From NCBI GenBank assembly GCA_025455005.1, contig JALONH010000001.1:186001-250000 (forward strand): a stretch of DNA of 64,000 nucleotides. The letters are read 5' to 3'. This document shows, piece by piece, positions 224 through 33,620 of the stretch. The translations under genes and the position numbers were made by a program. This stretch comes from Cytophagaceae bacterium (GTDB lineage Bacteria > Bacteroidota > Bacteroidia > Cytophagales > Cytophagaceae). The notes beneath the pieces are model-generated. The model did not search any database, was not told the DNA's origin, and worked only from the letters and a program-made list of their open reading frames with translations. Positions within the stretch are counted from its first letter, which is position 1. Every line of letters starts with the position of its first letter.

Positions 224-247
224 TTGATTTCTTAGAAAAAACAAAAA

Positions 248-277
248 CCCCGAAGTATAGTGCTTCGGGGTTTTTTT
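248..277 (+). terminator. Rho-independent terminator of the H1-like gene
   Basis: Perfect 8-bp stem CCCCGAAG/CTTCGGGG with a 7-base loop, preceded by an A run and followed by seven T. It separates the H1-like gene from the prenyltransferase operon and also argues against an ATG at 260 being the start of the next gene, because that codon lies inside the hairpin. Confidence 0.9.
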
Positions 278-325: not shown

Positions 326-1186
326 ATGAAAGCAATTTTGGCACATATGAGATTTCCCTTTTCCTTTTTTCTAATGCCCATGTATAGTTGGGCACTTTAT
401 TTAGTTAGGGATTGGGATTACAATCGATTTGATGCAACGTTCCTTTTTTTGATCTTACACCTTTTAGTTTATCCTTCGAGTAATGCATTTAATAGTTCAC
501 AAGATAAAGATTTGGGAAGTATCGGTGGATTGAAAAATCCTCCACCTGTACCGGCATCATTGACTACGATTACATGGATAATAGATATTACGGCTATTTT
601 GCTTTCTTATATTTTCCTTTCCGCATTCGTTGCCATCGGAATATTTGGCTACATTCTAGCCTCCAGAGCATATAGTCACCGCTCCATTCGTTGGAAGAAA
701 AATCCTATTTCCGGGTTTTTAACCGTATTTATTTTTCAAGGTGCGTATATTGTGGCACTCGTAGTTTATTCTTTAGTTCCCAATGTTCATGACTTGTCTA
801 TCGATATTTGGATACCCATTTTGGCAGCTTCCTTTTTAATCGGAGCTATTTATCCGCTCACTCAAATATACCAATTCGAGTCAGACAAAGCAGACGGTGT
901 CACTACCTTGTCCATGCGCTTAGGTTATAAGGGAACGTTTATTTGGACTATTCTTTGTTTTACCATCGCCTCTCTTGCCATTGCGTATAGTGGAATATCG
1001 AATGGAAAAACAATGGATGTGATGGTATTCCAACTTTTTGGGCTTCCTGTGGTTATATACTTTATATACTGGATGCGATTGGTATGGATAGATACTATAC
1101 ATGCTTCCTTTCATCATACTATGCGCTTTAATCTTATCGCATCGTTTTGTTTAAACAGTTGCTTTCTTTATTTAGCTTTCGTCTAA
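326..1186 (+). CDS. UbiA-family prenyltransferase
   Basis: Integral membrane protein of 286 residues with about eight hydrophobic segments. The two Asp-rich motifs of UbiA enzymes are visible: NSSQDKD at residues 56-62 followed by IGGLKNPPPVP, and YQFESDKADG at 182-191; these bind the Mg-diphosphate of the isoprenoid donor. UbiA enzymes attach a prenyl chain to an aromatic acceptor. The start at 326 (MKAILAHMRFP) is preferred over an in-frame ATG at 260 that lies in the upstream terminator. The polyketide synthase starts 5 bp after the stop, so the acceptor is probably the product of that enzyme (inference). The first motif has the N-x3-D-x-D form rather than the usual NDxxDxxxD, as I recall for Bacteroidota relatives beside type III synthases. 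Confidence 0.85.
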   Translation: MKAILAHMRFPFSFFLMPMYSWALYLVRDWDYNRFDATFLFLILHLLVYPSSNAFNSSQDKDLGSIGGLKNPPPVPASLTTITWIIDITAILLSYIFLSAFVAIGIFGYILASRAYSHRSIRWKKNPISGFLTVFIFQGAYIVALVVYSLVPNVHDLSIDIWIPILAASFLIGAIYPLTQIYQFESDKADGVTTLSMRLGYKGTFIWTILCFTIASLAIAYSGISNGKTMDVMVFQLFGLPVVIYFIYWMRLVWIDTIHASFHHTMRFNLIASFCLNSCFLYLAFV

Positions 1187-1191
1187 AATAA

Positions 1192-2202
1192 ATGCCTGCT
1201 CATATTAATCATATTGCATCCGTTTTACCTCCCTATTCTTACAGTCAAGAGGCCATTCGGAATTATTTATTAAAACACAGCAAAAAAGCATTTCCTATAC
1301 AAATGTTGTTCAATGAAAGTATCATTCAACAACGGTATTCTGTTTTATCCGATTTGTACTTGCCGGAACCCATAGGCTTGTACACTTTAGAAGCTCGGAT
1401 GGCTATATATAAAAAGGAAGCACCAGCATTAGCTATTCAAGCCATTCAAAAATTACCAATCGACCTTGCTGATATTACGCACATCATTACGGTTTCTTGT
1501 ACCGGATTATACGCACCGGGATTGGATATTGATATTCAACAACAACTGCAACTTGCTCCCGGTATACAACGACACGCCATAAACTATATGGGTTGTTATG
1601 CCAGTTTTCATGGACTACGATTGGCCCATTTAATACTAAATGAGCAACCTCAAGCAAAGGTGGTACTCGTGAGTGTAGAGTTGTGTTCTCTCCATTTGCA
1701 GCACAACACGGATGTAGAGTCTTTAGCAGCCTATACCTTATTCGGTGATGGTGCAGCTGCTGTATTATTAAGCGCTACACCGATAGGACCTGTTATTCAA
1801 AACTACCATTCCTATTTACTACCGGATACTGCCTCCTTAATGCAATGGAACGTTACATCTACTGCATTTGAGATGGTCTTGCATAAATCCATACCACATC
1901 ATATTACTACTCATTTACCGGAAGTATTAAAAGACGCATATGAAAAAGGAATACAACCACCGGATACGTTTGTAGTTCATCCCGGCGGAAAAGAAATTTT
2001 AAATGCCTTTGCTCAAGCCATTCCGGAAAGTCAATCGGACCTTGAGATTAGTAAAGCTATTTTAAAACGATTGGGTAATATGTCGTCGGTTACCATATTA
2101 TTTGTTTTAGAGTCTTATCAAGTTCAGGGTTGGAAAGGTTCGTATTTGGCTTGTGGCTTTGGTCCCGGACTTACCGTAGAACTCTTATCTTTACAAGCAT
2201 GA
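1192..2202 (+). CDS. Type III polyketide synthase (chalcone/stilbene synthase family)
   Basis: A 336-residue thiolase-fold protein. The Cys-His-Asn triad of type III synthases is present: Cys135 in NYMGCYASFHG, His263 in VVHPGGKEIL and Asn296 in LKRLGNMSSV; the C-terminal CGFGPGLTVE loop is also typical. The family condenses a starter acyl-CoA with malonyl-CoA units to make alkylresorcinols, alkylpyrones or similar phenolics. It lies second in an operon UbiA - synthase - methyltransferase - FAD enzyme, the last three with 4-bp ATGA start/stop overlaps. The set resembles the srsA-srsB-srsC phenolic-lipid genes of Streptomyces griseus (synthase, methyltransferase, flavoprotein hydroxylase) with a prenyltransferase added. 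The actual product cannot be read from sequence. Confidence 0.9.
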   Translation: MPAHINHIASVLPPYSYSQEAIRNYLLKHSKKAFPIQMLFNESIIQQRYSVLSDLYLPEPIGLYTLEARMAIYKKEAPALAIQAIQKLPIDLADITHIITVSCTGLYAPGLDIDIQQQLQLAPGIQRHAINYMGCYASFHGLRLAHLILNEQPQAKVVLVSVELCSLHLQHNTDVESLAAYTLFGDGAAAVLLSATPIGPVIQNYHSYLLPDTASLMQWNVTSTAFEMVLHKSIPHHITTHLPEVLKDAYEKGIQPPDTFVVHPGGKEILNAFAQAIPESQSDLEISKAILKRLGNMSSVTILFVLESYQVQGWKGSYLACGFGPGLTVELLSLQA

Positions 2203-2903
2203 AGTTGAACCACCGGAGTAGTCAAAAAGAATTGTTGGATGAACCGAATATACCTACGGCGGCCCTTCATCAAAATTTGAAAGAATTAGATACCATTAAC
2301 GCTCTTTTAGGTGGCGACAGCATCAACCAAAAAGCGTTACTGAAATTTAAATTACCTACCACTTCTAACATCACGATTCTGGATGTAGGATGTGGGAGTG
2401 GGGGAAGTTTAGTTCGTATGGCGGAGTTTGCCAGAACGAAAGGTTTTTCGTTTCGACTCATAGGCGTAGATATAACAACCGACTGTATCACCTATGCGCA
2501 GCGGCGCTGTGTTGCCTATCCGGAGATATCCTTTATTACTTGTGATTATCAAAATATAGCAGAATACTTACAGGAACCACCCGATATCATTTTTTCTTCA
2601 TTATTTACGCATCACTTATCGGATGTAGAATTAGTTTCGTTTTTGCAATGGATGGAAAAAACGGCCCGAATCGGCTACTTCATTAATGATCTACACCGAC
2701 ACGTAGTAGCGTATTATAGTATACGAGTACTTACAAAACTGTTTTCTTCTTCGTATCTTGTACAAAACGATGCCCCGATTTCTGTTTCCAGAGGTTTTCG
2801 AATAGCAGATTGGAAAACCTATATTCAAGCAGCTGCAATACCGGCTCCTACCATTAAGTGGCAATGGGCATTTCGGTGGTTGGTCTTTCGAAAAAAAATA
2901 TGA
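2199..2903 (+). CDS. SAM-dependent class I methyltransferase of the polyketide operon
   Basis: A 234-residue Rossmann-fold methyltransferase. Motif I is ILDVGCGSGG at about residues 60-69, followed by an acidic residue after beta-2 (IGVDITTDC). Start chosen at 2199 because ATG overlaps the synthase stop (ATGA), which implies translational coupling; the longer reading frame upstream lies wholly inside the synthase. It probably methylates a hydroxyl or ring carbon of the phenolic made by the synthase (inference from context; compare SrsB). No membrane segment is obvious, unlike isoprenylcysteine-type methyltransferases. Confidence 0.82.
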   Translation: MKLNHRSSQKELLDEPNIPTAALHQNLKELDTINALLGGDSINQKALLKFKLPTTSNITILDVGCGSGGSLVRMAEFARTKGFSFRLIGVDITTDCITYAQRRCVAYPEISFITCDYQNIAEYLQEPPDIIFSSLFTHHLSDVELVSFLQWMEKTARIGYFINDLHRHVVAYYSIRVLTKLFSSSYLVQNDAPISVSRGFRIADWKTYIQAAAIPAPTIKWQWAFRWLVFRKKI

Positions 2904-4030
2904 GTACTGTCCTTGTATATGATATTGTGATAGTAGGAGGAGGACTATCCGGTTTAGCTCTTTCGATTGAAATGGCACGAAAAAACTATAAGGTGGCACT
3001 TCTGGAAAAACAGTCGTATCCCTTACACCGAGTGTGTGGTGAATATATTTCACATGAGGCATGGCCTTACCTCAGGTTCTTGGGTATTCATCCGGAACAA
3101 GAATCCTTACCTGTCATACAAGAACTTATCATATCTGACACGACAGGTAAACTCTTACGACACTCCATGAAAAATAAAGGAGGAATAGGCGTAAGTCGGT
3201 ATTGGTTAGATAATCGATTGGTTGACATCGCACGATATTCCGGAGTAGACGTCATCGATCAAACCAATGTAGATCGAATTCATGCAACACCTACACAGTA
3301 TAGAATAGAAACCAATACAGGTTTTACTTATTTGGCTAAAGCAGCCGTAGCCTGTTATGGGAAACGCAGCTCTTTGGATAAATATCTAAATCGCACATGG
3401 TTCATGGAACGTAGCGATTTTATTGGTGTCAAATACCACATTCAATACGATTATCCAAAAGATCAAATACATCTTTACAATTTTGAAGACGGTTATTGTG
3501 GTATGTCGCATATTGAACAAAACAAATCGTGTTTGTGTTACCTTACCACTGCTAATACTTTAAAAAAATATGGTTCCATAGAAACCATGGAAGACGAGCA
3601 TTTATCTCAAAACCCTTGGTTGCGTAAAATATTTTTACAAGCTGATTTTTATAGGCACAAACCGTTAAGTATTTCTCAAGTTTCGTTTATTCCTAAAGAT
3701 ATTGTAACACAAGAAGTACCTATGTTAGGTGATGCAGCCGGTTTGATAACACCGCTTTGTGGAAATGGGATGAGTATAGCCCTGCAATCTGCGAAAATGA
3801 TGGCGGTACATCTAAGTTTATTTATGGAAGGAAAATATTCTCGAACCGATTGGCTAACGAAATATGAAAGAGAATGGAAATCTACCTTTGCCTTTCGATT
3901 GTGGGCAGGTAGACAGATACAACAACTTTTTGGTAAGCCATCCCGGACGAATCCTGCTATTGCTTTTTTACAAAAAACGCCTTGGTTAACAAGCGCACTC
4001 GTTCGAGCAACACACGGTAAACCTTTTTAG
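2900..4030 (+). CDS. FAD-dependent oxidoreductase (geranylgeranyl-reductase / aromatic hydroxylase-like)
   Basis: A 376-residue flavoprotein of the PHBH/geranylgeranyl reductase fold. The dinucleotide-binding motif IVGGGLSG is at residues 11-18, with an acidic end of beta-2 (ALLEKQSYP), a conserved RVCGEYISHEAW segment, and the second FAD motif GDAAGLITPLCGNGMSIAL near residue 280-300. It starts by a 4-bp ATGA overlap with the methyltransferase. In the family, members hydroxylate aromatic rings (as SrsC does on alkylresorcinols), halogenate, or reduce isoprenoid double bonds. With both a phenolic synthase and a prenyltransferase in the operon, either ring oxidation to a quinone or chain reduction is plausible; sequence alone does not decide. 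Confidence 0.85.
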   Translation: MSTVLVYDIVIVGGGLSGLALSIEMARKNYKVALLEKQSYPLHRVCGEYISHEAWPYLRFLGIHPEQESLPVIQELIISDTTGKLLRHSMKNKGGIGVSRYWLDNRLVDIARYSGVDVIDQTNVDRIHATPTQYRIETNTGFTYLAKAAVACYGKRSSLDKYLNRTWFMERSDFIGVKYHIQYDYPKDQIHLYNFEDGYCGMSHIEQNKSCLCYLTTANTLKKYGSIETMEDEHLSQNPWLRKIFLQADFYRHKPLSISQVSFIPKDIVTQEVPMLGDAAGLITPLCGNGMSIALQSAKMMAVHLSLFMEGKYSRTDWLTKYEREWKSTFAFRLWAGRQIQQLFGKPSRTNPAIAFLQKTPWLTSALVRATHGKPF

Positions 4031-4032
4031 AT

Positions 4033-4479
4033 ATGTTAACCAAAAAGGAAGTACATCAACAGGCTTTGACTTTTGTTATCGAAAAAAAAGATCAACTAAA
4101 AAAAGAGTGGGCGTCTATTCAAGAAGCGGCAAATTTAGAGACCAAAAGCAGTGCAGGGGATAAATATGAAACAGCACGTGCTATGGCTCAAATTGAGATT
4201 GACCGATTACGTCAACAAGTAGTACGTATGGAATTTTTTGAAAATTCATTACGCCAATTGTCTACGGATCCGTCGGATCGAGCATTACCCGGCGCTTTAA
4301 TATTAACTGATACATCCAGAATATATTGGAGTGTACCATTAGGGAAAATCAAGTTAGGTGACACACACTATTTTTTATTATCTGCAGATGCCCCCTTAGC
4401 AAAAGCTTTACAGGGTAGGGAAAAAGGGGATAAAGTCGAATTTTTAGGAACAACTCATACTATACTAGAAGTCCTATAG
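4033..4479 (+). CDS. GreA/GreB C-terminal-domain-like protein
   Basis: A 148-residue protein whose N-terminal half is helical and charged (SSAGDKYETARAMAQIEIDRLRQQ at about 39-62) and whose C-terminal half (ALILTDTSRIYWSVPLGKI to SADAPLAKALQGREKGDKVEF) matches the FKBP-like C-terminal domain of Gre transcription factors, including the APLAKALxGxxxGD turn. Bacteroidota homologues are often labelled 3-oxoacyl-ACP synthase in databases, a label nothing in this sequence supports. It starts 2 bp after the FAD enzyme stop, so it is probably co-transcribed with the polyketide operon. The Gre N-terminal coiled coil that enters RNA polymerase looks shortened, so anti-pausing activity is uncertain. Confidence 0.6.
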   Translation: MLTKKEVHQQALTFVIEKKDQLKKEWASIQEAANLETKSSAGDKYETARAMAQIEIDRLRQQVVRMEFFENSLRQLSTDPSDRALPGALILTDTSRIYWSVPLGKIKLGDTHYFLLSADAPLAKALQGREKGDKVEFLGTTHTILEVL

Positions 4480-4512: not shown

Positions 4513-5652
4513 TTATTCTTCCTCTTTATTTAACAATATAGAAAGCAAGGTATAAGCACCTGTTGTTACAAATTTTTCTTTCTTAATACTTTCCGATAAC
4601 AGCACTTCTGTCCATTCGGCAGAGGATAAGCCTATATCAATTGGTATGGCTTCATATGTAGTATAGTCTTTCGTAGATTTTTTTTCTATAAAAACATAGT
4701 TTTTTCCATTTGCTTGTACAACGGCAGATGAAGGTAACGCAAGCACACGTGCTGACGTTACGATAATTTTTCCTTGTACATACATATTCGGTAATAAATT
4801 AGGATCCTCTTTAGTTAAATGACCATGGATTCGAACTGTTCGGTCATTTTGTATGGTTCGTTGAATCAAATAAACTGTGGCGGTATACGATTTGGTTTCG
4901 TCATTCATTAATTTAAATTCTATCGCTTGTCCTTCTTTTAATTTGTTTAAATCTTTTTCATAAGCGAAGAGTTCTACATGCAAATGAGAGGTATTGACAA
5001 TGTCACATAAAACATCCTGAGGAGAAACATACTTTCCAATATTAACTTCGAGTCGACTTACAAAGCCGTTTTCAGGTGAAATAATAGTTGCGGTAGAAGT
5101 GAGTTTGTCTGTTTGAATATTGGCAGCTTGAATACCTACGAGTGAGAGTCGAGCAGAAATATCTGATAATTGAGCTTGAGCGGATATATAATTCGCTTGA
5201 GCTTCTTGAAAGGCTTGTGCGGCCCCTATGTTTTGCTGGTATAAGGCTTCTTGTCGTTTGTATTCTAATTCTAGATAGGTTAGTTTACTTTTCGTTTCTA
5301 AATAACTTCTTTGAAGTACTAGAAATTCGGGATTTTCTATAACAAATAATACCTCACCTTTTTTTACTTTTTTACCCGGAAGTAAGTCTGTCTTTTTTAT
5401 ATAACCTCCTAACAAGGCACTTATGGTTATTAAATTTTGCGGGGGCACATCTAATTGACCACTTGCTTGAATACTTCCTTGAAGTGTTTTAAGTTGTACT
5501 GTATCCACTGTTATCGAAGCAGACATACGTTGAGCTTCTGTTAAAAGAATTTCATTTGCTTTAATATCTCTTGTTTCTTGTTCTTCTTTAGGAGCAGAAC
5601 AAGTAGTCAATAGAAAACCGAATATCCCTATAGTATAGATGAAGTAGTTCAT
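4513..5652 (-). CDS. RND efflux periplasmic adaptor lipoprotein (CusB/CzcB family)
   Basis: A 379-residue membrane-fusion protein. The start MNYFIYTIGIFGFLLTTC at 5652 gives a lipoprotein signal with Cys18 as the lipidated residue; an in-frame upstream ATG at 5697 lies inside the pump gene and is less likely. Domains follow the adaptor order: lipoyl half (GGYIKKTDLLPGKKVKKGEVLFVIENPEF), alpha-hairpin coiled coil, second lipoyl half (TIISPENGFVSRLEVNIGKYV), beta barrel and membrane-proximal domain. It begins 1 bp after the pump stop codon. It should link the inner-membrane pump to an outer-membrane channel, which is not encoded nearby. Confidence 0.88.
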   Translation of the reverse strand: MNYFIYTIGIFGFLLTTCSAPKEEQETRDIKANEILLTEAQRMSASITVDTVQLKTLQGSIQASGQLDVPPQNLITISALLGGYIKKTDLLPGKKVKKGEVLFVIENPEFLVLQRSYLETKSKLTYLELEYKRQEALYQQNIGAAQAFQEAQANYISAQAQLSDISARLSLVGIQAANIQTDKLTSTATIISPENGFVSRLEVNIGKYVSPQDVLCDIVNTSHLHVELFAYEKDLNKLKEGQAIEFKLMNDETKSYTATVYLIQRTIQNDRTVRIHGHLTKEDPNLLPNMYVQGKIIVTSARVLALPSSAVVQANGKNYVFIEKKSTKDYTTYEAIPIDIGLSSAEWTEVLLSESIKKEKFVTTGAYTLLSILLNKEEE

Positions 5653-5653
5653 A

Positions 5654-8600
5654 TTATTTCTTTTTATCGATAAGCGTGTATAAGATGGGTAATACAAATA
5701 ATGTGAGGAGTGTTGCCGTCACTAATCCACCCATCACAACAGATGCTAAAGGTTTTTGCACTTCCGCTCCTGCATTTTCTGATAATGCCATGGGTAGAAA
5801 TCCAAGTGAAGCCACTAATGCGGTCATTAAGACAGGACGAAGTCTTACGATACAGCCTTCGAGAACAATGCTATGTGAATCGGCATCCGGTTTCAAGGTA
5901 CGAAGTCGATTAAATTCACCCATTAACACGATTCCATTTAAGACAGCCACGCCGAACAAAGCGATAAACCCAATACCGGCTGAAATACTAAAGGGCATGT
6001 CTCGCCACCACAAAATCCATATACCACCTAATGAAGCGAGGGGTATGGCAGTGAATATTACTATACTTTGTTTTACCGAGTGGAATGTAAAGTAAAGTAA
6101 AAGTAAAATTAACCCAAGTGCTATGGGTACGGCAATTTGTAATCGTGCTTTAGCCTCTAATAAATTTTCAAATTGTCCTCCGTAGGAGATCGAATAGCCG
6201 GGTGGTAACCAGATGTTTTTATTTACTACGGCTTGAATATCCTGTACGACACTTTCTACGTCTCTCCCTCGTACGTTGAATGCCACTATCATTCGACGTT
6301 TAGTTTGGTCTCGTTGTATTTGATTGGGTCCATACTGTAGTCGTATGTCAGCGACTTGTACCAGCGGTATCAGTCCATGACCTTCCGTTGGAATATATAA
6401 ATTTTTTAAATGTTCTATATCTTTCCGAGCAGAGGAATCTAACCGAACGACTAAGTCGAACCGGCGTTCGCCTTCATATATTTTTCCCGCTATTTCACCG
6501 GCAAAAGCCGTTCGAACTAAGGTGTTAGCTTCTTCGATACTTATTCCAAAACGAGCTAGTGCCGGACGCTTATATTCTACTACTAACTGGGGTAGACCTA
6601 ATATTTTTTCTTCATACAAATCTTTAACCCCTTCAATAGAACCGGCTTGAAGTGCTATTTGATGACCTATAGAAGAAAGTTCTTCTAATTGGTCTCCATA
6701 TATTTTAATGGCTACATCTTGTTTAGCGCCCGTCATCAATTCATTAAAACGCATTTGAATGGGTTGTTGAAAACTGAATAGAACACCCGGTATATTTTTT
6801 TCCAGCTCGTCTTGCATATCATTTGCCAATGTTTCTTTAGAAAAGGCGTTCCATTGAGATTTATCTTTTAAAATAACCATTAAGTCACATGCCTCCATAG
6901 GCATAGGATCAGTAGGAATTTCTGCCGTACCAATTTTACCTATCACTTCTTTTACTTCAGGAAAGGAAGCGTGTAGCACTTGTGCTGCTTTTTTAGTAAC
7001 GGCTATTGTTTGTTCCATCGAACTACCGGGTAATAAACGAACTTCGACTGCAAAATCTCCTTCATCCAATGCAGGTATAAACTCTCCTCCCAATTGTAGG
7101 AATACCATAAACGAACCCAAACTAAAAAGAAGTACTGCTACTAAAATACTTTTTTTATACAACAGAGCTTTTTGCAAGAGCGGTTGATAGAACCGTTGAC
7201 ACCTTCCCATTATTCTATCCGAAAAATTCTTTTTGGCCGTTGTTGCATTGGTTAATAAAAGGGCACTCATCATAGGTACATAGGTTAACGATAATAGAAA
7301 TGCCCCAACAATCGCAAATATAACCGTCTGTGCCATCGGTTGAAACATCTTTCCTTCGATTCCGGTCAATGCCAAAATAGGTAGGTAGACGATTAAAATA
7401 ATCAATTCGCCGAAAGACGCTGTTTTCCGAATGCCCGATGCTGCTTGATATACAGCCGTGTTCATCGATTCGGCGGATAGTACCTGTCCTCTATAGAGTT
7501 GTAAGGCATGTAACGTGGCTTCAACTATAATAACAGCACCATCCACTATAAGTCCAAAATCAATAGCACCCAATGACATTAAATTACCTGACACACCAAA
7601 GTAGTGCATCATCGATAGGGCAAACAACATAGCGAGTGGGATAACCGAAGCAACGATAATCCCGGCACGAATATTACCTAGCAGTATGACCAATACAAAA
7701 ATGACAATTAAGGCACCTTCTACAAGATTAGATTGAACAGTATGAATCGCTTTAGAAACTAAAGAGCTTCGGTCTAAAAACACCTCTACTTCAATTCCTT
7801 CCGGCAATGTTTTTTTGATACTCGCCATTTTGGTTTTAACGGCTTCGATTACTTTGGCAGAGTTCTCCCCTTTTAACATTAATACTATAGCACCTACCAC
7901 TTCTCCTTCGTCGTTATAAGTCATGGCGCCATATCGAATAGCATGACCAAACCGAACATCACTCACATCGGATATCAATATAGGATTCCCCTGAGGGGTT
8001 TGTTTGACTACCATCGAACCGATAGATTCCAGTGAGGTAGCAAGGCCTTCGGTTCGTATCATCCATACGTTGGGTTGTTTATCGATATAGGCCCCACCGG
8101 TATTTTGATTATTACGTTCAACGGCATCAAACACTTCCCGAATCGTAACACCCATACTACGCAATCGTTCCGGTTGAATCGCAATTTCATATTGTTTTAC
8201 ATGACCACCAAAGCTAGAAACATCCGCAACTCCGGGAGTACCGAGGATTTGACGGCGTACAATCCAATCCTGTAAAGTACGTAAATCGGTAGAGCTATAT
8301 TTTCTTTCATATCCTTTTTTAGGACGAAGAATGTATTGATAAATTTCACTTAACCCGGTAGATACCGGAGCTAACTCCGGAGTGCCAATTCCGGGAGGAA
8401 TATCCTGTTGAACTTGCAGTAGTCGTTCGCTTACTTGTTGGCGTGCCCAATAGACATCTGTAGCATCTGTAAAGACGATGGTAATAACAGATAGACCAAA
8501 TCTTGAAATCGATCGAATTTCAGTTTGTCCCGGAATATTGGCCAATCGCAGTTCGATAGGAAAGGTAATGAGTCGTTCCACATCCGGAGCTGCTAAGGTA

Positions 8601-8761
8601 GGACTGTATGTAATAATTTGAACTTGATTATTTGTAATATCCGGAACAGCATCGATCGGCAGTTTGCTTAATGACCAAATACCCCAGAAGAAGAGAGCCA
8701 AGGTGCCAACAGCTACAATGATTTTATTGTGTATAGAGAAATAAATGATACGATCCAGCAT
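5654..8761 (-). CDS. Heavy-metal RND efflux pump, CzcA/CusA family
   Basis: A 1035-residue proton-driven transporter of the heavy-metal efflux (HME) branch. It starts MLDRIIYFSIHNKIIV, has the two large periplasmic loops and twelve membrane helices expected, and carries the branch signature DFGLIVDGAVIIVE at residues 401-414 in TM4, whose acidic residues carry protons. The length matches CusA and CzcA, with no C-terminal TolC-like fusion of the kind seen in some Bacteroidota pumps. The adaptor follows 1 bp downstream and a small exported protein precedes it. The metal (Cu/Ag, Zn/Co/Cd) cannot be assigned safely from the sequence. Confidence 0.93.
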   Translation of the reverse strand: MLDRIIYFSIHNKIIVAVGTLALFFWGIWSLSKLPIDAVPDITNNQVQIITYSPTLAAPDVERLITFPIELRLANIPGQTEIRSISRFGLSVITIVFTDATDVYWARQQVSERLLQVQQDIPPGIGTPELAPVSTGLSEIYQYILRPKKGYERKYSSTDLRTLQDWIVRRQILGTPGVADVSSFGGHVKQYEIAIQPERLRSMGVTIREVFDAVERNNQNTGGAYIDKQPNVWMIRTEGLATSLESIGSMVVKQTPQGNPILISDVSDVRFGHAIRYGAMTYNDEGEVVGAIVLMLKGENSAKVIEAVKTKMASIKKTLPEGIEVEVFLDRSSLVSKAIHTVQSNLVEGALIVIFVLVILLGNIRAGIIVASVIPLAMLFALSMMHYFGVSGNLMSLGAIDFGLIVDGAVIIVEATLHALQLYRGQVLSAESMNTAVYQAASGIRKTASFGELIILIVYLPILALTGIEGKMFQPMAQTVIFAIVGAFLLSLTYVPMMSALLLTNATTAKKNFSDRIMGRCQRFYQPLLQKALLYKKSILVAVLLFSLGSFMVFLQLGGEFIPALDEGDFAVEVRLLPGSSMEQTIAVTKKAAQVLHASFPEVKEVIGKIGTAEIPTDPMPMEACDLMVILKDKSQWNAFSKETLANDMQDELEKNIPGVLFSFQQPIQMRFNELMTGAKQDVAIKIYGDQLEELSSIGHQIALQAGSIEGVKDLYEEKILGLPQLVVEYKRPALARFGISIEEANTLVRTAFAGEIAGKIYEGERRFDLVVRLDSSARKDIEHLKNLYIPTEGHGLIPLVQVADIRLQYGPNQIQRDQTKRRMIVAFNVRGRDVESVVQDIQAVVNKNIWLPPGYSISYGGQFENLLEAKARLQIAVPIALGLILLLLYFTFHSVKQSIVIFTAIPLASLGGIWILWWRDMPFSISAGIGFIALFGVAVLNGIVLMGEFNRLRTLKPDADSHSIVLEGCIVRLRPVLMTALVASLGFLPMALSENAGAEVQKPLASVVMGGLVTATLLTLFVLPILYTLIDKKK

Positions 8762-26042: not shown

Positions 26043-29000
26043 ATGTTAAAGAAATGTTTACATCGTGTATTAACTTTATTGTTTAGCTTTTACTTAGTTT
26101 ATTATGTAAAAGCTCAGAATTGTAATGTTCCCCTTTCTTTGTCTACTGTTGATTTGCCAAAGGTATCCAATAAATTGTCTATAGTTTTGCCGGAGTACGT
26201 AAATCAAATTCCATTTTCAAATTACACAAGGGTTATTTCTCAAGACTATGATGAATATGGGACAACAGTTAAAGCTTCGCTTTACAAAGGGGAAAACTTC
26301 GAAAAAGTGTTTGCCCTAACACATGGAAATACTATAAGTGAGAATGTAGAAATTACCTATCAACCCCTGTTTAATGCAAGCTTACTATCCTCCACTTTAG
26401 ATATTGATATTATCAATGAGTCCGGTCAAAGTATTTTGAATTCTACAAACCAACCCATTTTATTTTTAACCAACAATGATATTATCAATTCTCCTAAAAC
26501 AGTGAATGCTAATACGGTTTACACTATTAAATTACCTTATTTATCTCCTAATGCACGCATAGTTTTTATAGAAAAAATTACAGTAACTGGATGCATTCCA
26601 ACTGAAGGAACCACACATGCTATTCAACTTAAAATATGTGATGTATTTATTAATCAAACGTCATCAACTATAGGGGGGAAGATTGAAACCAAACTGGTCA
26701 ATAAGATTGATAAAACGAAATCAAATCTATTGGTTTTTGAAGGTACACATTCAAATGATTATTGTTTAAAAAATGATATATATAAACAAACCAGACAAGT
26801 TGTATTCCGGTTTGAAAGCACAACATCTCCAGTCGATTTTAATTATTTCTCTATATTCTTATTTGACCAATATGAAAAATCAGCAATTAATAGTCTATCT
26901 GTTATTGATGCTACTTCATTAAAAGTAAGTTTACTTCGATTAGATGAAAATGGAATAGAACAAAGTTATGATTTGAGAAACAGTACTATTGCTGCTGATA
27001 AAAATATCAATTTGGGAATTCAAACTAAGGAAAATATTGCAAATTGTAAAGGTTTAGAAACATATAACTTTTTTAAGAGTTTACAATTAGATTTTACCAC
27101 TAATGTAAGACCTACAGATAAATATCGAATTGAATTTGAAGAAATATCTTGTTGCCCTCAAACCTTTAATCCTATTCGAGAACCAGATTATTTCTTTCAA
27201 TTTCAATACTTAAATACGTGTGGTGATTGGCGTATTTATCAAAAAGCGTTAACTAATTTCCCAGATATTGGAACTATTAATGTGTCGGCTCTGCCTACTG
27301 TTTTCCCAAGTTCGATTAATGCTACTAGGTTAACTAATCCGGCTACACCTTCCGCTCCCCCTATTATCACGGGTGTAGAAAACTTCAAAACAACCATTGA
27401 ATTTCTTAATAAAGAAGCGAATCTTTTCATTCACAATTTTAACTCAGTTTCTATCGAAGATATGTATTTTGTATTTGGTATACGACATGAAAATGGTATT
27501 CGATTGACAGAATATGATGTAAATGGTAGTCCTATTAATTCAACAGAATTTGATTATCAATTATGGAATTCTTTACCACAAGGTACATTTAATCCTAAAT
27601 ATCCTCACAGTGGATTAGTTTTAACATTATCTAATAATACTAAAATTAATTTAAACAAGTTAAACCAAACGGATGACCTCTATTCAAATATTTCCTTTTC
27701 TACTTATCCCGTCTCAAACACTTCATTATTTAAAGTAAAATTATCGGATATTTTACCTATTGCGATGGGAGAAGGAAGAGCAAACTATTTGTTAAGAGTT
27801 CAAAATGTAATAAAAAATGCAACCGTTGAGTGGTCTTTTGAGCCGGTATGTAGTGCTTTATCAGAAGAAGATGGAGTACCTAATTATAGTTTTGAATGGT
27901 ATTTCTCTCCAGGTGATGAAGAATGTCAAAAATGTATATTACCGCTTACCCAAATTGAGAAAGACGTATTTGTGAATTGTCCCGGTTGTAGATTTACGGG
28001 AGGGGATGTATATTATTCGTCAGCCAAAAGAGTTACTTTAGGTTATGTTGATTTAAATAATGATGATAAACCGGATTTAATAGATAATCTACCGAGTTAT
28101 GCAACTATTCTACAGAATAGCGATTCCGATCCGAATAATAATTTAAATTTAAATACGGTTATTCAGAATGATGTTGTTTTATTAAAACACCATTATTATT
28201 TAACCACCGGTCAAAGTTTCCCTTATGGTACCGCTGGTCAAATTATTACTATTTCGGATGATATTTTTGGAGTAAACGCGTTAACTCAATCGTATTTAAA
28301 GGTTCAGATACCTAAAGGATTTAGTATCTATGAGAGTTCCAATCAAAAAATGAAAGTTACCATTCGAAATGGTTCAACTATTTTGTTTTCACTATCTAAT
28401 CTTTCTATTTTTAATTTAGATGGAACTACAAATTCTTGGATTGAAGAAATAAATTCGACTACAACTACAACCGATATAGTCTTTAACTTTAGTGTTTCTC
28501 AACTGCAACAATTTGGTTTGACAACTTTTTCTTCTTATAAATCTAATTATAGTGTTGAGGTTGAATTCTTTATTCAGTTGAAAGAGAATATTATAGGTGA
28601 AAGTAATGGACTCAAAAATCACCTGATAGTATTTAAACCTTATTTTTCTAAGGTGCAGTATAAAAATCGAGATATACGTCATAATGATGGAGAGTTAGAA
28701 CAATTTAATAGTTTTCAACCGGATGGGGATCCTTATCAACAAGTAGGAAATCAAATTTTATATACGTGGGAAAATTTTAATTCTCCCAATCGATTTATAA
28801 ACGAGATGTCAAATATTTATTACAATAGCAATAAGTTATTACTTTGTGGTGCTAGCGAAACATCTATTACTTCTGCACAAATCTTTTTTAATGTATTGGG
28901 AACTCCTAATTTAAATTATGGATTACCATACTATAACATAAAGTCATGTGACTTATTTTATGAAATTTCAACACAAGTTGATTTTAGTTTAATAGACAAT

Positions 29001-32000
29001 TTGTTTGTTAATGAATACAGAGCAGCTGATTATATAGAGAAGGTAGAAATTCCTATTCCGGAATCATTAGATCTAGAGAACATATACTTTATTAATTCCG
29101 GTGATAGGTCTTTGATATCTAGATATGATAATAAAAATGGAGTTGTAATTCCGAATATTACACTCGATCCTAATAACCCTAATAATTCAGCACTAACCTA
29201 CATTGAGAATAGGACTGGTTTTGATATGTATTCATTAAATATTTCTCAACTAAGATCAAATGGCAATATCATAGGGAGGGGGGATGAGCATGAAGCTATT
29301 TTGTTAAATATTTCTTTTAAAGACAAATGTATAGAAGGGATGAATTCCACTAAACGATTTTTTCCAGATAAAATAACTAGTCCAAATGCAAGTCCAAAAT
29401 TTTATGTAAGAGAAAATACAATTGATATCTCAACACTTTTAAATTTTGATCAAAACTGGGGAGAACTTTTTGTAGAAAATCAATCTAAAACAACCATCGT
29501 TAGAGAAAACTTTACTACTCAAGTTTCGAGTGACAATAAAATTGAGTATATATATCAAATAAAAAATCCTGAATTGTCTGGTTCGCTATCTAGCTTCTCC
29601 AATGTATTTACTGTAATTGCCTATGATAATAGAATTGTTACACCACCTTTGCTTACTAGTGTTGATGAACCCAACCAAACTATTTTATACTTTGATATAG
29701 ATAAAGGTAATAATATTTATTGGAGGTTTTTTTACCAACTTAATAGTATAAATAAGTTAAATGCTAATAATTTAATTAAATTAAAATTAAGCACCACATT
29801 TTTGTCTTGTCCAGATAATAATTTTAAGTTATTTATAGGTTATGGTCATCATTGTGAAGGCGAAATTAACCAAACAATAAGTATAAATTCTTTATGTTCT
29901 TTTACGCCACCAAATGAATTGGACTTCATAACAGTTTTTGTAAAAGAAGCATTTGTGAATGTTTCGAATGTTAGATATCCAAACGAAAGCTGTGGACAAG
30001 TAGAACTTCAATATAATTTGATATCCAATCAAGGAATTGCTAAGGATGTATCAAGTACAATTCAATTACCAGTGAGTTTTAACTATAACCAACAACCAAT
30101 TACCGTTCGTTATGGGAATAACGTACTCCCTTCAGATCAATATTCACTTTCCTTTATATCGCCATCTACTTTACAATTATCTATCCTTGATCAGAATATT
30201 CCATTTGCAAAACAATTAGAAATTGGCACTACTGCAGTAGATATAATAGAAGTATCTATTCCCCTTCTATACGAAGAAGGATGTGTACTTTATTCTAATG
30301 TATCAATTCCGATATCAGTTCGATATACATCTATTTGTCCGGAGTATAAAACTGAAACTACCACTAGCTTAATTCCATCGTTATTAAATTGCCCAAGAAC
30401 AGGAAGTGTTATGGGTAGGCTTTCCCAACCCAATGGATCAGGAACTATTTTATGTAAAGATTCGGACAATCAGTTTACACCTATTCAAATTACCTTTACC
30501 CAAGATCCTTCCATGACCTCTGCGTATACGTATGAATGGTATCAAGGCAATGGTTCCGCGTTTACTACAATCGTTGGTCAATCGTCTCCGACTATAACTG
30601 TGAATAATCCTTCTACTATTAAAGTAAAAGTTACCGATATCAATACCGGTTGTTATGGGGAATTTACTACTACCGTATCGGATCAAATTGTATTTCTACC
30701 TATTGATCCTGTATGTAAAGGCCAATCACCAAGATTACAATTAAATGGTTTAAATAATGTACAAGGCTCCATAACTACATCTTGGTTTAGAGAAACGAAT
30801 CCAAACGAACTATTATTTAGTCTTTCAGAAGAAGGAATGTACAAGGCTATGGCTATAGTACCCGGCTGTACTTTAACAACCGCTACAGCTTATGATATTC
30901 GATTTAAAGAAGCTCCTATACCTTACATTTTTGAACGGGATTTAATTTACCATGGACAAAATGACGTTACGATTTCAATAATAAATCCTACCGCAAACCT
31001 ACTAGGATCGGTTTCTATCCGTTGGTCTCATGATGTTCAAAAAACAAATCTTGAATCGTTTAATACCAATAAAGATGGAGTCTATTCGGTTACAGCAACT
31101 CTATTATCTACTGGATGTTCGGTCATTTCTTCAACGAAGATAGTGAGTCCTCAAATTAGAATCTTGCCTCTTGGAGCGGATGCGTGTGCTCCTAACAGTT
31201 CTATCGTTCTTATGGCAGAATCAAATATTGTTGCCGGAAATTATATTTGGCAAAAGATAAACCCCTTAACACGTGTTGGAACTACTATTTCTACTTCTGC
31301 AACCGTGAATATATCTGAAACAGGTTTATATGCAGTATCAAATGATTTAACCGTTCAAACCTGTGATGCCTCTTATTTTTATATTAACTTGGATAAAGGA
31401 AGTATACGTCCTATTGATTTGATATCAAATAATTCTTCCGATGGTAATTTTGAGAATATCAGCAGTTGCTCTCCTGTAGGATTTTTAACAGATTACACTT
31501 GTTTGTCTACCGTTCCGGATTTTTCTAATCCAAATTATGCTCAAGATTTGTTGGGTAGATTTATTTTGACACCTAATGCTACACTTTGGAATAGACCAAA
31601 CTTATGGACTGGTCTGGCATTGAATAATCCTAATTATAATATCCCTGCAGCCCAACAGCAAATGATGGTTGTAGATGGATCTTCTTCTTCTCGTGTTTGG
31701 TCAAAAGAAATTTCTATTGAAGAATATCCTTATTTTTTACAGGAATTTATGTTCACAGCACATGTTCGTAATATTGAATCTAATGCTGTTGCAGCCAGAA
31801 GAGAAATTCCAAAGATGAATTATTCTATTTCATTTAGAACATCTGGTCCTAATCCTATCCAAAGATTAGTTAGCAAAGGAGTCTTAAATGAAATTACGTT
31901 TAATACTAACCAAAGAAATTGGATACAAATGACTGCTTTTGTGAATAGATTCCAAGAATTTATTGGTTGTGCAGATGATGATGTCGAATCTGATTTTACT

Positions 32001-33620
32001 CATGCTATCATAGAACTTTCACTACAAAACGGAGGTGATATTGGAAGAGACTTTGCTATAGATGAAATTAGTTTTGTTCCTTTAGATGTTTTTCACTGTG
32101 TTGAAAATACTACTGCTACTACCACCTCTTTTGCATACAGAATGGTACCAAGACCGTGTGAAGCTTCCTTGTTTAAAGTTATAACTACTGAATTTCATAC
32201 TTGTCCCGGTATAGGAGCAACTTTGACAGCTCAAAAATATACAGATGCGGCTTCGTTATCCTATTCTTGGAGTAAAGACAACACGACGTTATCTAATAAT
32301 TTGACAATTTCAGTAAATCCACCCGTTACTACTACCTATACGTTTAGAGTAGTTGATACAGAAAATCAATGTTCTTTCGAAAAAGCTGTTACGGTTTATG
32401 TTACCAAACCTGAAATTTCTATTCAGTCTAATGGAATAAATGCTTGTACACAACCTGAAATCTCTTTTGAAGTAGATCGCTTTACAATAATTGGAAACAT
32501 TTCCTATGAATGGTCTGTAAATAATCAAATCATACCAAATGAGAAAGGTAGAAAGTTTGTACATCGTTCTGTAACAAACGGCGATGAAGTTTCATGTCGA
32601 CTCATTCATCATTGTACTAATCCCGATGGTTCTTCCTTACTCGTACAATCCAATTCCATCATACTAAAGGGTCAACTCGAGCAGGCGAATGCCGGTCAGG
32701 ACACTTCTATTTGTGCTTTGGATATAGTTACGATAGGTACACCGGTCAACTCCGTAAATACATACGCTTGGTCAACACCTACTGAAACACTAGCAGCAAC
32801 AAGTGCTACGGTTCAAGTACAACCTGCGACTACGACTACCTATACCTTACAATTAACCGATGCCAATACTTGTATCACTGAAGATGATGTTGTTATACAT
32901 GTAAAAGGTCCGAAACCTCAAGTACAAGCAGGACCGGATCTACAAGTTTGTTCCGGTTCAAGTGTAACCGCTACTCAAGCTTCAACGAACGCCGCTTCTG
33001 TATTATGGTCGCCAACATTAGGTCTAAGCTCTCCCACTGATATAACCCCTATATTTTCTCCTTCCACTGATACGGAATTTACCCTTACTGCTACCCATTC
33101 TTCAACAGGCTGTTCCGCCTCCGATAACGTTCTAGTAGTGGTGTATCCTTTACCTTCCGGCGAATTAGAATATCGTAATCAACAATTACAAGTTCAAATC
33201 CAACAACCGGAGTTATATACGTATCAATGGTCCGGATTTAGTGTTCCCAATACCTGGTCGGAATCGTATTTGAATGTTAGCGAATCCGGTAGATTTAGTG
33301 TGACGGTACAAAACAAACATACAGGATGTAGTACAACGTTATTTAAGGATGTGCAAGTAACTAATATTGTAGCTCCCGATGGTTCTCCATTGATAAGCCT
33401 ATACCCGAATCCTATGCAACATCGACTTCATGTGCATACTCATAGTTCAACTAGTATTAAAACAATGGAGTGGATTACGGTTACCGGAACGGTAGTTCAA
33501 CTGAATGAAATTAATCAACCTCAAGCGGAAATTTCATCCTATTTGGCTTCCGGTATGTATATATTGAAAATTACCCTAATAGATGGTAAAATTCTTTACC
33601 ATCAAATGGTGATAGAATAA
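26043..33620 (+). CDS. Giant secreted protein with Ig/PKD-like domains and type IX secretion tail
   Basis: A 2525-residue protein. A signal peptide (residues 1-24, ending VKAQ) is followed by about 1,400 residues of beta-rich sequence with scattered Cys and a GCRFTGG segment (near 660), then a chain of Ig/PKD-like modules from about 1,480 (repeats of the type YEWYQGNGSAFTTIVGQSSPTITV, AGQDTSICALDIVTIGTP, AGPDLQVCSGSSVTATQA). The end (about 2450-2525) is a type A T9SS sorting domain: ISLYPNPMQHRLHV, an inner strand, and YLASGMYILKITLIDGKILYHQMVIE. It should be exported across the outer membrane and cell-attached. Function perhaps adhesion; no enzyme motif seen. The first 4-6 kb looks more AT-rich than the final 1 kb. 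Confidence 0.85.
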   Translation: MLKKCLHRVLTLLFSFYLVYYVKAQNCNVPLSLSTVDLPKVSNKLSIVLPEYVNQIPFSNYTRVISQDYDEYGTTVKASLYKGENFEKVFALTHGNTISENVEITYQPLFNASLLSSTLDIDIINESGQSILNSTNQPILFLTNNDIINSPKTVNANTVYTIKLPYLSPNARIVFIEKITVTGCIPTEGTTHAIQLKICDVFINQTSSTIGGKIETKLVNKIDKTKSNLLVFEGTHSNDYCLKNDIYKQTRQVVFRFESTTSPVDFNYFSIFLFDQYEKSAINSLSVIDATSLKVSLLRLDENGIEQSYDLRNSTIAADKNINLGIQTKENIANCKGLETYNFFKSLQLDFTTNVRPTDKYRIEFEEISCCPQTFNPIREPDYFFQFQYLNTCGDWRIYQKALTNFPDIGTINVSALPTVFPSSINATRLTNPATPSAPPIITGVENFKTTIEFLNKEANLFIHNFNSVSIEDMYFVFGIRHENGIRLTEYDVNGSPINSTEFDYQLWNSLPQGTFNPKYPHSGLVLTLSNNTKINLNKLNQTDDLYSNISFSTYPVSNTSLFKVKLSDILPIAMGEGRANYLLRVQNVIKNATVEWSFEPVCSALSEEDGVPNYSFEWYFSPGDEECQKCILPLTQIEKDVFVNCPGCRFTGGDVYYSSAKRVTLGYVDLNNDDKPDLIDNLPSYATILQNSDSDPNNNLNLNTVIQNDVVLLKHHYYLTTGQSFPYGTAGQIITISDDIFGVNALTQSYLKVQIPKGFSIYESSNQKMKVTIRNGSTILFSLSNLSIFNLDGTTNSWIEEINSTTTTTDIVFNFSVSQLQQFGLTTFSSYKSNYSVEVEFFIQLKENIIGESNGLKNHLIVFKPYFSKVQYKNRDIRHNDGELEQFNSFQPDGDPYQQVGNQILYTWENFNSPNRFINEMSNIYYNSNKLLLCGASETSITSAQIFFNVLGTPNLNYGLPYYNIKSCDLFYEISTQVDFSLIDNLFVNEYRAADYIEKVEIPIPESLDLENIYFINSGDRSLISRYDNKNGVVIPNITLDPNNPNNSALTYIENRTGFDMYSLNISQLRSNGNIIGRGDEHEAILLNISFKDKCIEGMNSTKRFFPDKITSPNASPKFYVRENTIDISTLLNFDQNWGELFVENQSKTTIVRENFTTQVSSDNKIEYIYQIKNPELSGSLSSFSNVFTVIAYDNRIVTPPLLTSVDEPNQTILYFDIDKGNNIYWRFFYQLNSINKLNANNLIKLKLSTTFLSCPDNNFKLFIGYGHHCEGEINQTISINSLCSFTPPNELDFITVFVKEAFVNVSNVRYPNESCGQVELQYNLISNQGIAKDVSSTIQLPVSFNYNQQPITVRYGNNVLPSDQYSLSFISPSTLQLSILDQNIPFAKQLEIGTTAVDIIEVSIPLLYEEGCVLYSNVSIPISVRYTSICPEYKTETTTSLIPSLLNCPRTGSVMGRLSQPNGSGTILCKDSDNQFTPIQITFTQDPSMTSAYTYEWYQGNGSAFTTIVGQSSPTITVNNPSTIKVKVTDINTGCYGEFTTTVSDQIVFLPIDPVCKGQSPRLQLNGLNNVQGSITTSWFRETNPNELLFSLSEEGMYKAMAIVPGCTLTTATAYDIRFKEAPIPYIFERDLIYHGQNDVTISIINPTANLLGSVSIRWSHDVQKTNLESFNTNKDGVYSVTATLLSTGCSVISSTKIVSPQIRILPLGADACAPNSSIVLMAESNIVAGNYIWQKINPLTRVGTTISTSATVNISETGLYAVSNDLTVQTCDASYFYINLDKGSIRPIDLISNNSSDGNFENISSCSPVGFLTDYTCLSTVPDFSNPNYAQDLLGRFILTPNATLWNRPNLWTGLALNNPNYNIPAAQQQMMVVDGSSSSRVWSKEISIEEYPYFLQEFMFTAHVRNIESNAVAARREIPKMNYSISFRTSGPNPIQRLVSKGVLNEITFNTNQRNWIQMTAFVNRFQEFIGCADDDVESDFTHAIIELSLQNGGDIGRDFAIDEISFVPLDVFHCVENTTATTTSFAYRMVPRPCEASLFKVITTEFHTCPGIGATLTAQKYTDAASLSYSWSKDNTTLSNNLTISVNPPVTTTYTFRVVDTENQCSFEKAVTVYVTKPEISIQSNGINACTQPEISFEVDRFTIIGNISYEWSVNNQIIPNEKGRKFVHRSVTNGDEVSCRLIHHCTNPDGSSLLVQSNSIILKGQLEQANAGQDTSICALDIVTIGTPVNSVNTYAWSTPTETLAATSATVQVQPATTTTYTLQLTDANTCITEDDVVIHVKGPKPQVQAGPDLQVCSGSSVTATQASTNAASVLWSPTLGLSSPTDITPIFSPSTDTEFTLTATHSSTGCSASDNVLVVVYPLPSGELEYRNQQLQVQIQQPELYTYQWSGFSVPNTWSESYLNVSESGRFSVTVQNKHTGCSTTLFKDVQVTNIVAPDGSPLISLYPNPMQHRLHVHTHSSTSIKTMEWITVTGTVVQLNEINQPQAEISSYLASGMYILKITLIDGKILYHQMVIE

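Follow-up and report, generated by a model that had tools for sequence, protein, structure and literature searches.

A type III polyketide synthase operon with a UbiA-type prenyltransferase in Bacteroidota, predicted to make a prenylated alkylresorcinol-type lipid

The window analyzed here, 64,000 nucleotides of a Cytophagaceae bacterium, carries four genes on one strand at 326-4030 that encode a UbiA-type prenyltransferase, a type III polyketide synthase (PKS), a methyltransferase and an FAD enzyme. The operon had been proposed in a preliminary description, and all four of its genes were confirmed. The features are as follows.

243..275, strand not assigned (called on the - strand): terminator-like stem-loop with T-rich tails, 13-pair stem
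326..1186, + strand: UbiA-superfamily prenyltransferase, 286 aa (Pfam UbiA, 44.5 bits)
1192..2202, + strand: type III PKS, predicted alkylresorcinol synthase, 336 aa (Chal_sti_synt_N/C, 78/61 bits)
2199..2903, + strand: class I SAM-dependent methyltransferase, 234 aa (Methyltransf_25, 46.5 bits)
2900..4030, + strand: FAD-dependent oxidoreductase, 376 aa (FAD_binding_3, 43.1 bits)
4033..4479, + strand: small ORF with a weak match to the GreA/GreB C-terminal domain (GreA_GreB, 20.3 bits, below cut-off)

The Pfam matches of the four enzymes all exceed the gathering scores. UbiA and PKS genes are separated by 5 nt, while the last three genes are joined, as had been described, by ATGA overlaps at 2199-2202 (PKS/methyltransferase) and 2900-2903 (methyltransferase/FAD enzyme). 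On the 5' side, the stem at 243-275, whose + strand copy is followed by ggggttttttt, closes an upstream lysine/alanine-rich gene and bounds the operon, which we therefore take to begin downstream of it. Since an alternative GTG start for UbiA (260) falls within this stem, ATG 326 is favored.

The residues of the PKS were compared with those of 62 homologues and of 9 PKSs from outgroups. The Cys-His-Asn triad, already reported to be intact, consists of C135, H263 and N296 and is identical in 62/62 aligned homologues. The other pocket residues are T104, A108, C165, H168, W219 and M228, the first three being similar to those of PKS18, which is the best PDB match (phmmer). W219 lies at position 256 of CHS (G256) and corresponds to W281 in Azotobacter ArsB, a match made by register and not by direct alignment with ArsB. 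This register is supported by THNS-like Streptomyces PKSs, which have a Y at 219 that matches Y224 of THNS, and by the 9 residues between W219 and M228, the same spacing as between G284 and M293 in ArsC. W219 is found in 43/43 examined UbiA-associated PKSs and also in the PKSs of planctomycete and proteobacterial operons that combine the same three enzyme classes. A short starter is possible even for W-type PKSs. In ArsB, a W281G change switches the enzyme from resorcinol to pyrone synthesis, with the opposite shift for G284W in ArsC (PMC6274091), and W281 is shared by the synthases that make polyketide quinones in Streptomyces and Mycobacterium smegmatis (PMC9927152). On the basis of W219, a resorcinol is therefore predicted rather than a pyrone.

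We consider it unlikely that the PKS instead uses a short starter, acetyl- or malonyl-CoA, to make a ring of the orcinol or phloroglucinol type, with the UbiA prenyl group as the sole long tail of a ubiquinone-like molecule and an acyl tail in its place in flavobacterial relatives. The best NCBIfam model for the PKS is indeed DpgA (112 bits, cut-off 425), which has a malonyl-CoA starter. Loci of the Flavobacteriaceae type would also fit, as they have no UbiA, genes for a KAS, a FabZ-like protein, an SDR, an ACP-like protein (INSANLVDI) and a PPTase adjoin FAD-MT-PKS, and the PKS pocket differs (I108, P165, T168 and F219). However, the PKS18-like T104, A108 and C165 are kept by the UbiA-linked PKSs and not by the flavobacterial ones, and PKS18 uses long acyl starters. 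Furthermore, the W281-type enzymes so far tested make long-chain alkylresorcinols (PMC6274091, PMC9927152), which is the kind of product that we favor for this PKS.

The methyltransferase scores 131.6 bits against PRK06202, below the cut-off, and its homologues adjoin a PKS in Sphingobium, Deinococcus, Psychrobacter, Methylobacterium and Paludisphaera (128-187 bits). It would methylate a phenol, either on oxygen or on carbon. The FAD enzyme is from the geranylgeranyl-reductase/halogenase/UbiH superfamily, its profile search returned halogenases and monooxygenases, and the motifs of its family are CGEYxS and NFxxGYCGxS. Its NCBIfam scores (GG-red-SF 98.6 bits, QhpG 71.9 and Ubi-OHases 54.6) are all below the cut-offs, and the 98.6 bits against TIGR02032, for which the cut-off is 158.8, do not place it among geranylgeranyl reductases. 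Neither cut-offs nor motif support a halogenase or a geranylgeranyl reductase, and we view the enzyme as a putative ring hydroxylase.

Since the best NCBIfam model, although below its cut-off, is that of the geranylgeranyl reductase superfamily, a reductase role is possible, in which case the FAD enzyme would act on the prenyl chain and the product would be a partly saturated prenyl alkylresorcinol, comparable to the dihydrogeranyl in Agq, and no quinone. This model matches 29/29 family members, with the top E-value among NCBIfam models. We nevertheless find such a role improbable because FAD homologues accompany PKS and methyltransferase with no UbiA nearby in Psychrobacter, Deinococcus, Methylobacterium, Paludisphaera and the Flavobacteriaceae type, so that a prenyl substrate is seemingly not needed, and because GYCGxS stands in place of the W-x-F-P type motif of the reductases. 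Ring hydroxylation is the function that we retain for the FAD enzyme.

The prenyltransferase, with a score of 44.5 against the Pfam gathering cut-off of 34.2, is a multi-helix membrane protein of the UbiA superfamily, and its profile search matched ApUbiA (4od4) and chlorophyll synthase (9sau). The canonical NxxxDxxxD and DxxxD motifs are absent, and there are instead, throughout the subfamily (28 members of which make up alignment A1), NxxNSxxDxD (S52-N53-x-x-N56-S57-x-x-D60-x-D62) and QxxQxxxD (Y176-P-x-x-Q180-x-Y182-Q183-x-x-x-D187-x-x-x-G191). S57 and Q183 stand where MenA from the same genome has D. Since two of the usual motif aspartates are missing, the donor or the chemistry may differ. 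The A1 profile cleanly sets apart 47/296 genomes, and a single-sequence AlphaFold model was poor (pLDDT 50). The protein is neither MenA, as it scores 12.4 bits against the menA model (cut-off 102), nor CtaB: MenA (L124, 4031-5008), CtaB and another UbiA-family member are separate genes in the same genome. EboC was rejected because its motif differs. A dedicated prenyl synthase was rejected, as the genome has only 2 polyprenyl synthases, neither of which is in the window. The prenyltransferase seems to belong to a new UbiA subfamily of Bacteroidota whose Asp motifs are non-canonical and which is tied to the PKS phylum-wide.

How widespread is this tie? The four-gene set is not confined to one genome but recurs over much of Bacteroidota. 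Counts come from genome-wide searches, a nucleotide-pattern search of contigs for the PKS having given one relative only. Among 348 Bacteroidota genomes, all 83 with the UbiA subfamily also have the PKS (83/83), 88 have the PKS without UbiA, and 0 have UbiA without the PKS. The association is far beyond chance, with Fisher p = 1.5e-13 for 59 relatives and p = 4.9e-19 for 296 phylum genomes, both values being optimistic because of kinship. UbiA adjoins the PKS in 29/62 examined loci, and both are kept even though far apart or on separate contigs in genomes such as G190, G072, G316 and G333. They are jointly absent from some members of families f1, f59, f66, f6 and f9, while in the f24 clade UbiA is divergent and unlinked to the PKS. 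Since it is never seen without the PKS, this UbiA seemingly serves to modify what the PKS makes. The UbiA query had 0 matches among plasmids. A tie between the PKS and aerobic respiration was dropped, since COX1, found in 43/43 PKS+ relatives, also occurs in 13/16 PKS- relatives and does not tell the two groups apart.

That UbiA merely adjoins the PKS and serves another pathway (carotenoid, archaeal-type lipid or menaquinone, the last named in the preliminary description as contrary to its proposal) is very improbable: the gene is off-contig or distant from the PKS in about 14 genomes and has weak NCBIfam matches that include MenA and DGGGP synthase models, but it never occurs without the PKS, MenA and CtaB are separate, and genomes without this UbiA keep other UbiA-family genes, with 2-4 remaining in PKS- genomes.

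A comparison with known systems places the operon next to agqABCD from Actinoplanes missouriensis, which according to citing papers makes alkyl-O-dihydrogeranyl-methoxyhydroquinones (Awakawa 2011 ChemBioChem, cited in PMC10896814, PMC7692728 and PMC4044012). As described there, a type III PKS makes an alkylresorcinol that undergoes prenylation, methoxylation and hydroxylation, with a membrane-bound, UbiA/MenA-like enzyme prenylating the alkylresorcinol-type lipid (PMC10896814, PMC4044012). The four enzyme classes (type III PKS, methyltransferase, FAD enzyme and UbiA) are matched here, the make-up of agq being taken from citing papers and not from sequence. The earlier statement that no established product is known for this exact set has to be amended, since agqABCD has one with apparently the same enzymes. 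The likeness is by description, the phylum is different, and the Bacteroidota UbiA has altered Asp motifs.

The trio had also been said to mirror srsABC of Streptomyces griseus. Like the operons for polyketide quinones in Streptomyces MNU77 and Mycobacterium, srsABC combines a W281-type PKS with two genes to give methoxylated alkylquinones (PMC9927152). However, srsABC is not clearly the closest relative, as the trio is HMM-homologous to trios from Pseudomonadota, Deinococcota and Planctomycetota. These actinobacterial pathways, likened here by description and not by MT/FAD sequence, are described without a prenyltransferase. Cyanobacterial hidABC (hierridin) and planctomycete MT-FAD-PKS operons unite the same three classes of enzyme (PMC10896814, PMC8086630), and alkylresorcinols, with C-methylation, are the products of the latter (PMC10896814). 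Against the Bacteroidota models, the trio of Paludisphaera reaches 363/129/113 bits, with W219 retained. These operons are described without UbiA, except for a prenyltransferase in the hierridin-like cluster of one cyanobacterium (PMC8086630). EboC/Ubi-297 from Flavobacteria is, like our protein, a UbiA-like aromatic prenyltransferase of Bacteroidota apart from quinone synthesis, but lies within the ebo cluster with no PKS and retains a DXXDXXXD motif (PMC9235831). Furaquinocin-type clusters, found on Streptomyces plasmids, also combine a type III PKS with aromatic prenylation, but their prenyltransferase is soluble and annotated as aromatic prenyltransferase rather than UbiA, and their PKS is THNS-like with Y at 219.

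Taken together, these findings suggest, with a probability of roughly 0.6, that the product of the operon is an alkylresorcinol-type lipid that has been prenylated, methylated and oxidized. The core of the original proposal, a prenyltransferase added to a phenolic-lipid trio, is supported, with W219 pointing to a resorcinol, a trio as in other alkylresorcinol operons and a UbiA always accompanied by the PKS. Starting from a fatty acyl thioester, the PKS would add three malonyl units and close the ring by aldol condensation, giving a 5-alkylresorcinol, to whose ring or phenolic oxygen the membrane UbiA would transfer an isoprenoid from the general polyprenyl-diphosphate pool. The methyltransferase would then add its methyl group, and ring hydroxylation by the FAD enzyme would give a hydroquinone oxidizable to a quinone, leaving a prenylated alkyl-hydroquinone/quinone lipid in the membrane. 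The gene set, operon geometry, triad, W219 and UbiA subfamily with its PKS dependence across genomes are features read from the DNA, from which we infer substrates, step order, acceptor atom, prenyl length and role, as a membrane redox or a structural lipid.

Bacteroidota are thought to depend on menaquinone as their quinone. Should the operon produce a redox lipid, this would form a second quinone pool beside menaquinone, comparable to the polyketide quinones of Actinobacteria, for which a respiratory role has been demonstrated (PMC9927152). We put forward only tentatively, with the odds against it, that Bacteroidota have a phylum-wide prenylated polyketide lipid, made by an ArsB-type synthase and the new UbiA subfamily, which is possibly a second membrane quinone and has an acyl-tailed counterpart in flavobacteria. 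AntiSMASH repeatedly reports type III PKS clusters in Bacteroidota, e.g., in PMC10752948, PMC11225308 and PMC12565237, where the passages concerned name no product. In much of the phylum, these clusters are now linked to one particular UbiA and have a residue-based product prediction, a prenylated resorcinol. Our literature search for a Bacteroidota cluster combining UbiA and type III PKS found none. Pathways of this type have been described in another bacterial phylum, but the Bacteroidota version and its distinct, widespread prenyltransferase appear to be undescribed in the literature searched.

Finally, the small ORF at 4033-4479, which the preliminary description had missed, begins 2 nt past the end of the FAD gene. 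It may be transcribed together with the operon, although a role in the pathway is not supported. A similar ORF is found 5' of the FAD gene in another locus (L117, 4204-4650).

The preliminary description had placed four genes in one operon, and open reading frames (ORFs) were found for all of them at the positions it assigned. The classes that it named were borne out by Pfam, each above the gathering score. Its ATGA overlaps and the intact Cys-His-Asn triad of the type III polyketide synthase (PKS; C135, H263, and N296) were also confirmed. The layout in the window is as follows.

243-275: terminator-like stem between the unit and the upstream lysine/alanine-rich gene
326-1186: UbiA gene, stop codon TAA
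1192: start of the PKS gene, 5 nt past the UbiA end
2199-2202: ATGA overlap of PKS and methyltransferase (MT) genes
2900-2903: ATGA overlap of MT and FAD enzyme genes
4033-4479: small fifth ORF, beginning 2 nt past the FAD gene

Directly before the terminator lies the 3' end of the lysine/alanine-rich gene (1-222), which is histone H1-like with AAKK-type repeats. Just downstream of the operon, on the opposite strand, are genes for a membrane-fusion protein and an RND-type efflux pump (4513-8761); such genes (neighborhood gene clusters 6 and 10) are also near the PKS in loci L065, L071, L073, and L087. Elsewhere in the window, two very large ORFs (26043-33620 and 46133-51076; 2525 and 1647 aa) have no Pfam match at 1e-5.

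The published resorcinol/pyrone switch is ArsB W281/ArsC G284, with M293 nine residues further (PMC6274091). The window PKS has W219 nine residues ahead of M228, aligned with CHS G256. This register is supported because THNS-like Streptomyces PKSs in the same alignment show Y in place of W219 and C at 168, in agreement with the published THNS residues (Y224 and T197C). W219 is present in 43/43 UbiA-associated PKSs (29 linked, 14 unlinked). On its position, register, and invariance, the window PKS is predicted to form a resorcinol; its starter is less certain. T104, A108, and C165 match the PKS18 residues. The flavobacterial PKS clade has I108, P165, T168, and F219, and P165 with F219 suggests a different starter or product.

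In the UbiA subfamily, NxxNSxxDxD and YPxxQxYQxxxDxxxG stand where the canonical Asp motifs would be: compared with MenA of the same genome, S57 and Q183 replace aspartates, whereas D60 and D187 are retained. Unlinked homologs in one family of genomes (f24; 24-30% identity) carry the same signature. The nearest solved structures by profile search are ApUbiA and chlorophyll synthase, and the structural model is poor. The genome has distinct genes for MenA, CtaB, and a third UbiA. Since the genome holds only two polyprenyl synthases, this putative prenyltransferase probably draws its donor from the general pool.

By profile search, the family of the FAD enzyme is closest to halogenases and monooxygenases; its closest NCBIfam models, with the window protein under the cut-off of each, are those of the geranylgeranyl-reductase superfamily, QhpG, and Ubi hydroxylases. 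We prefer ring hydroxylation over prenyl reduction because FAD homologs also belong to PKS-MT-FAD trios in whose neighborhood no UbiA appears. The MT might methylate either O or C; a planctomycete MT is probably a C-methyltransferase and a cyanobacterial one is O-directed (PMC10896814).

By predicted function, the operon most closely resembles the agqABCD cluster of Actinoplanes missouriensis as citing papers describe it (PMC10896814, PMC7692728, and PMC4044012). A hierridin-like cyanobacterial cluster also has a prenyltransferase (PMC8086630). In the accessible text of the open-access literature, Bacteroidota type III PKS clusters appear only as antiSMASH entries (PMC10752948, PMC11225308, PMC12565237, and PMC12843772). 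A respiratory role of the product is only a possibility, since COX1, which shows PKS-positive relatives to be aerobic-capable, fails to separate them from PKS-negative ones.

In the genomes sampled, this UbiA occurs only together with the PKS. Across 296 Bacteroidota genomes spread over the phylum, 135 have the PKS and 47 have UbiA, the same 47 being found with a single sequence and with a profile of 28 orthologs, which at 1e-15 returned nothing beyond them. Among 59 relatives, the counts are 43 and 42. When the samples were merged (348 genomes; PKS in 171), all 83 UbiA-positive genomes had the PKS, and none had UbiA without it. Fisher p-values of 4.9e-19 (phylum) and 1.5e-13 (relatives) ignore shared ancestry and are thus optimistic. 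The absence of UbiA is specific because other UbiA-family genes remain in genomes lacking it. UbiA adjoins the PKS in 29 of 62 loci, co-directional or divergent. Co-occurrence is more than a by-product of adjacency, since UbiA lies apart from the PKS in about 14 loci examined. Families f1, f59, f66, f6, and f9 hold members with both genes beside members with neither, which is consistent with joint gain or loss. The FAD gene often adjoins UbiA, not the PKS (e.g., L065, L070, L071, L073, L079, and L090); in genome G317, UbiA is megabases from the PKS, yet a FAD homolog (514 bits) is ~3 kb from UbiA.

In Flavobacteriaceae-type loci (L093, L116, L117, and L119-L121), where UbiA was not found, FAD-MT-PKS is followed by FabZ-like, KAS, ACP-like (INSANLVDI, with NSA where DSL is usual), and PPTase genes, some loci also having an SDR. 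This adjoining set lies at:

L120, 8238-10696
L117, 8199-11882
L116, 7885-11255
L093, 7925-11295

Plasmid-borne trios, homologous in all three enzymes, occur in Psychrobacter, Methylobacterium, Sphingobium (with ACP and KAS), Deinococcus, and Paludisphaera. Because of these plasmid trios and the UbiA-less flavobacterial loci, we consider PKS-MT-FAD the widespread core and UbiA an extra component, present in some of the Bacteroidota sampled. Directly upstream of FAD-MT-PKS, ORFs judged YceI-like (lipid/isoprenoid-binding) by eye only are present in L116 (3713-5011) and L117 (4716-5228). L093 belongs to G249, the sole PKS-positive relative in the order without UbiA, and its flavobacterial-type PKS locus suggests horizontal replacement.
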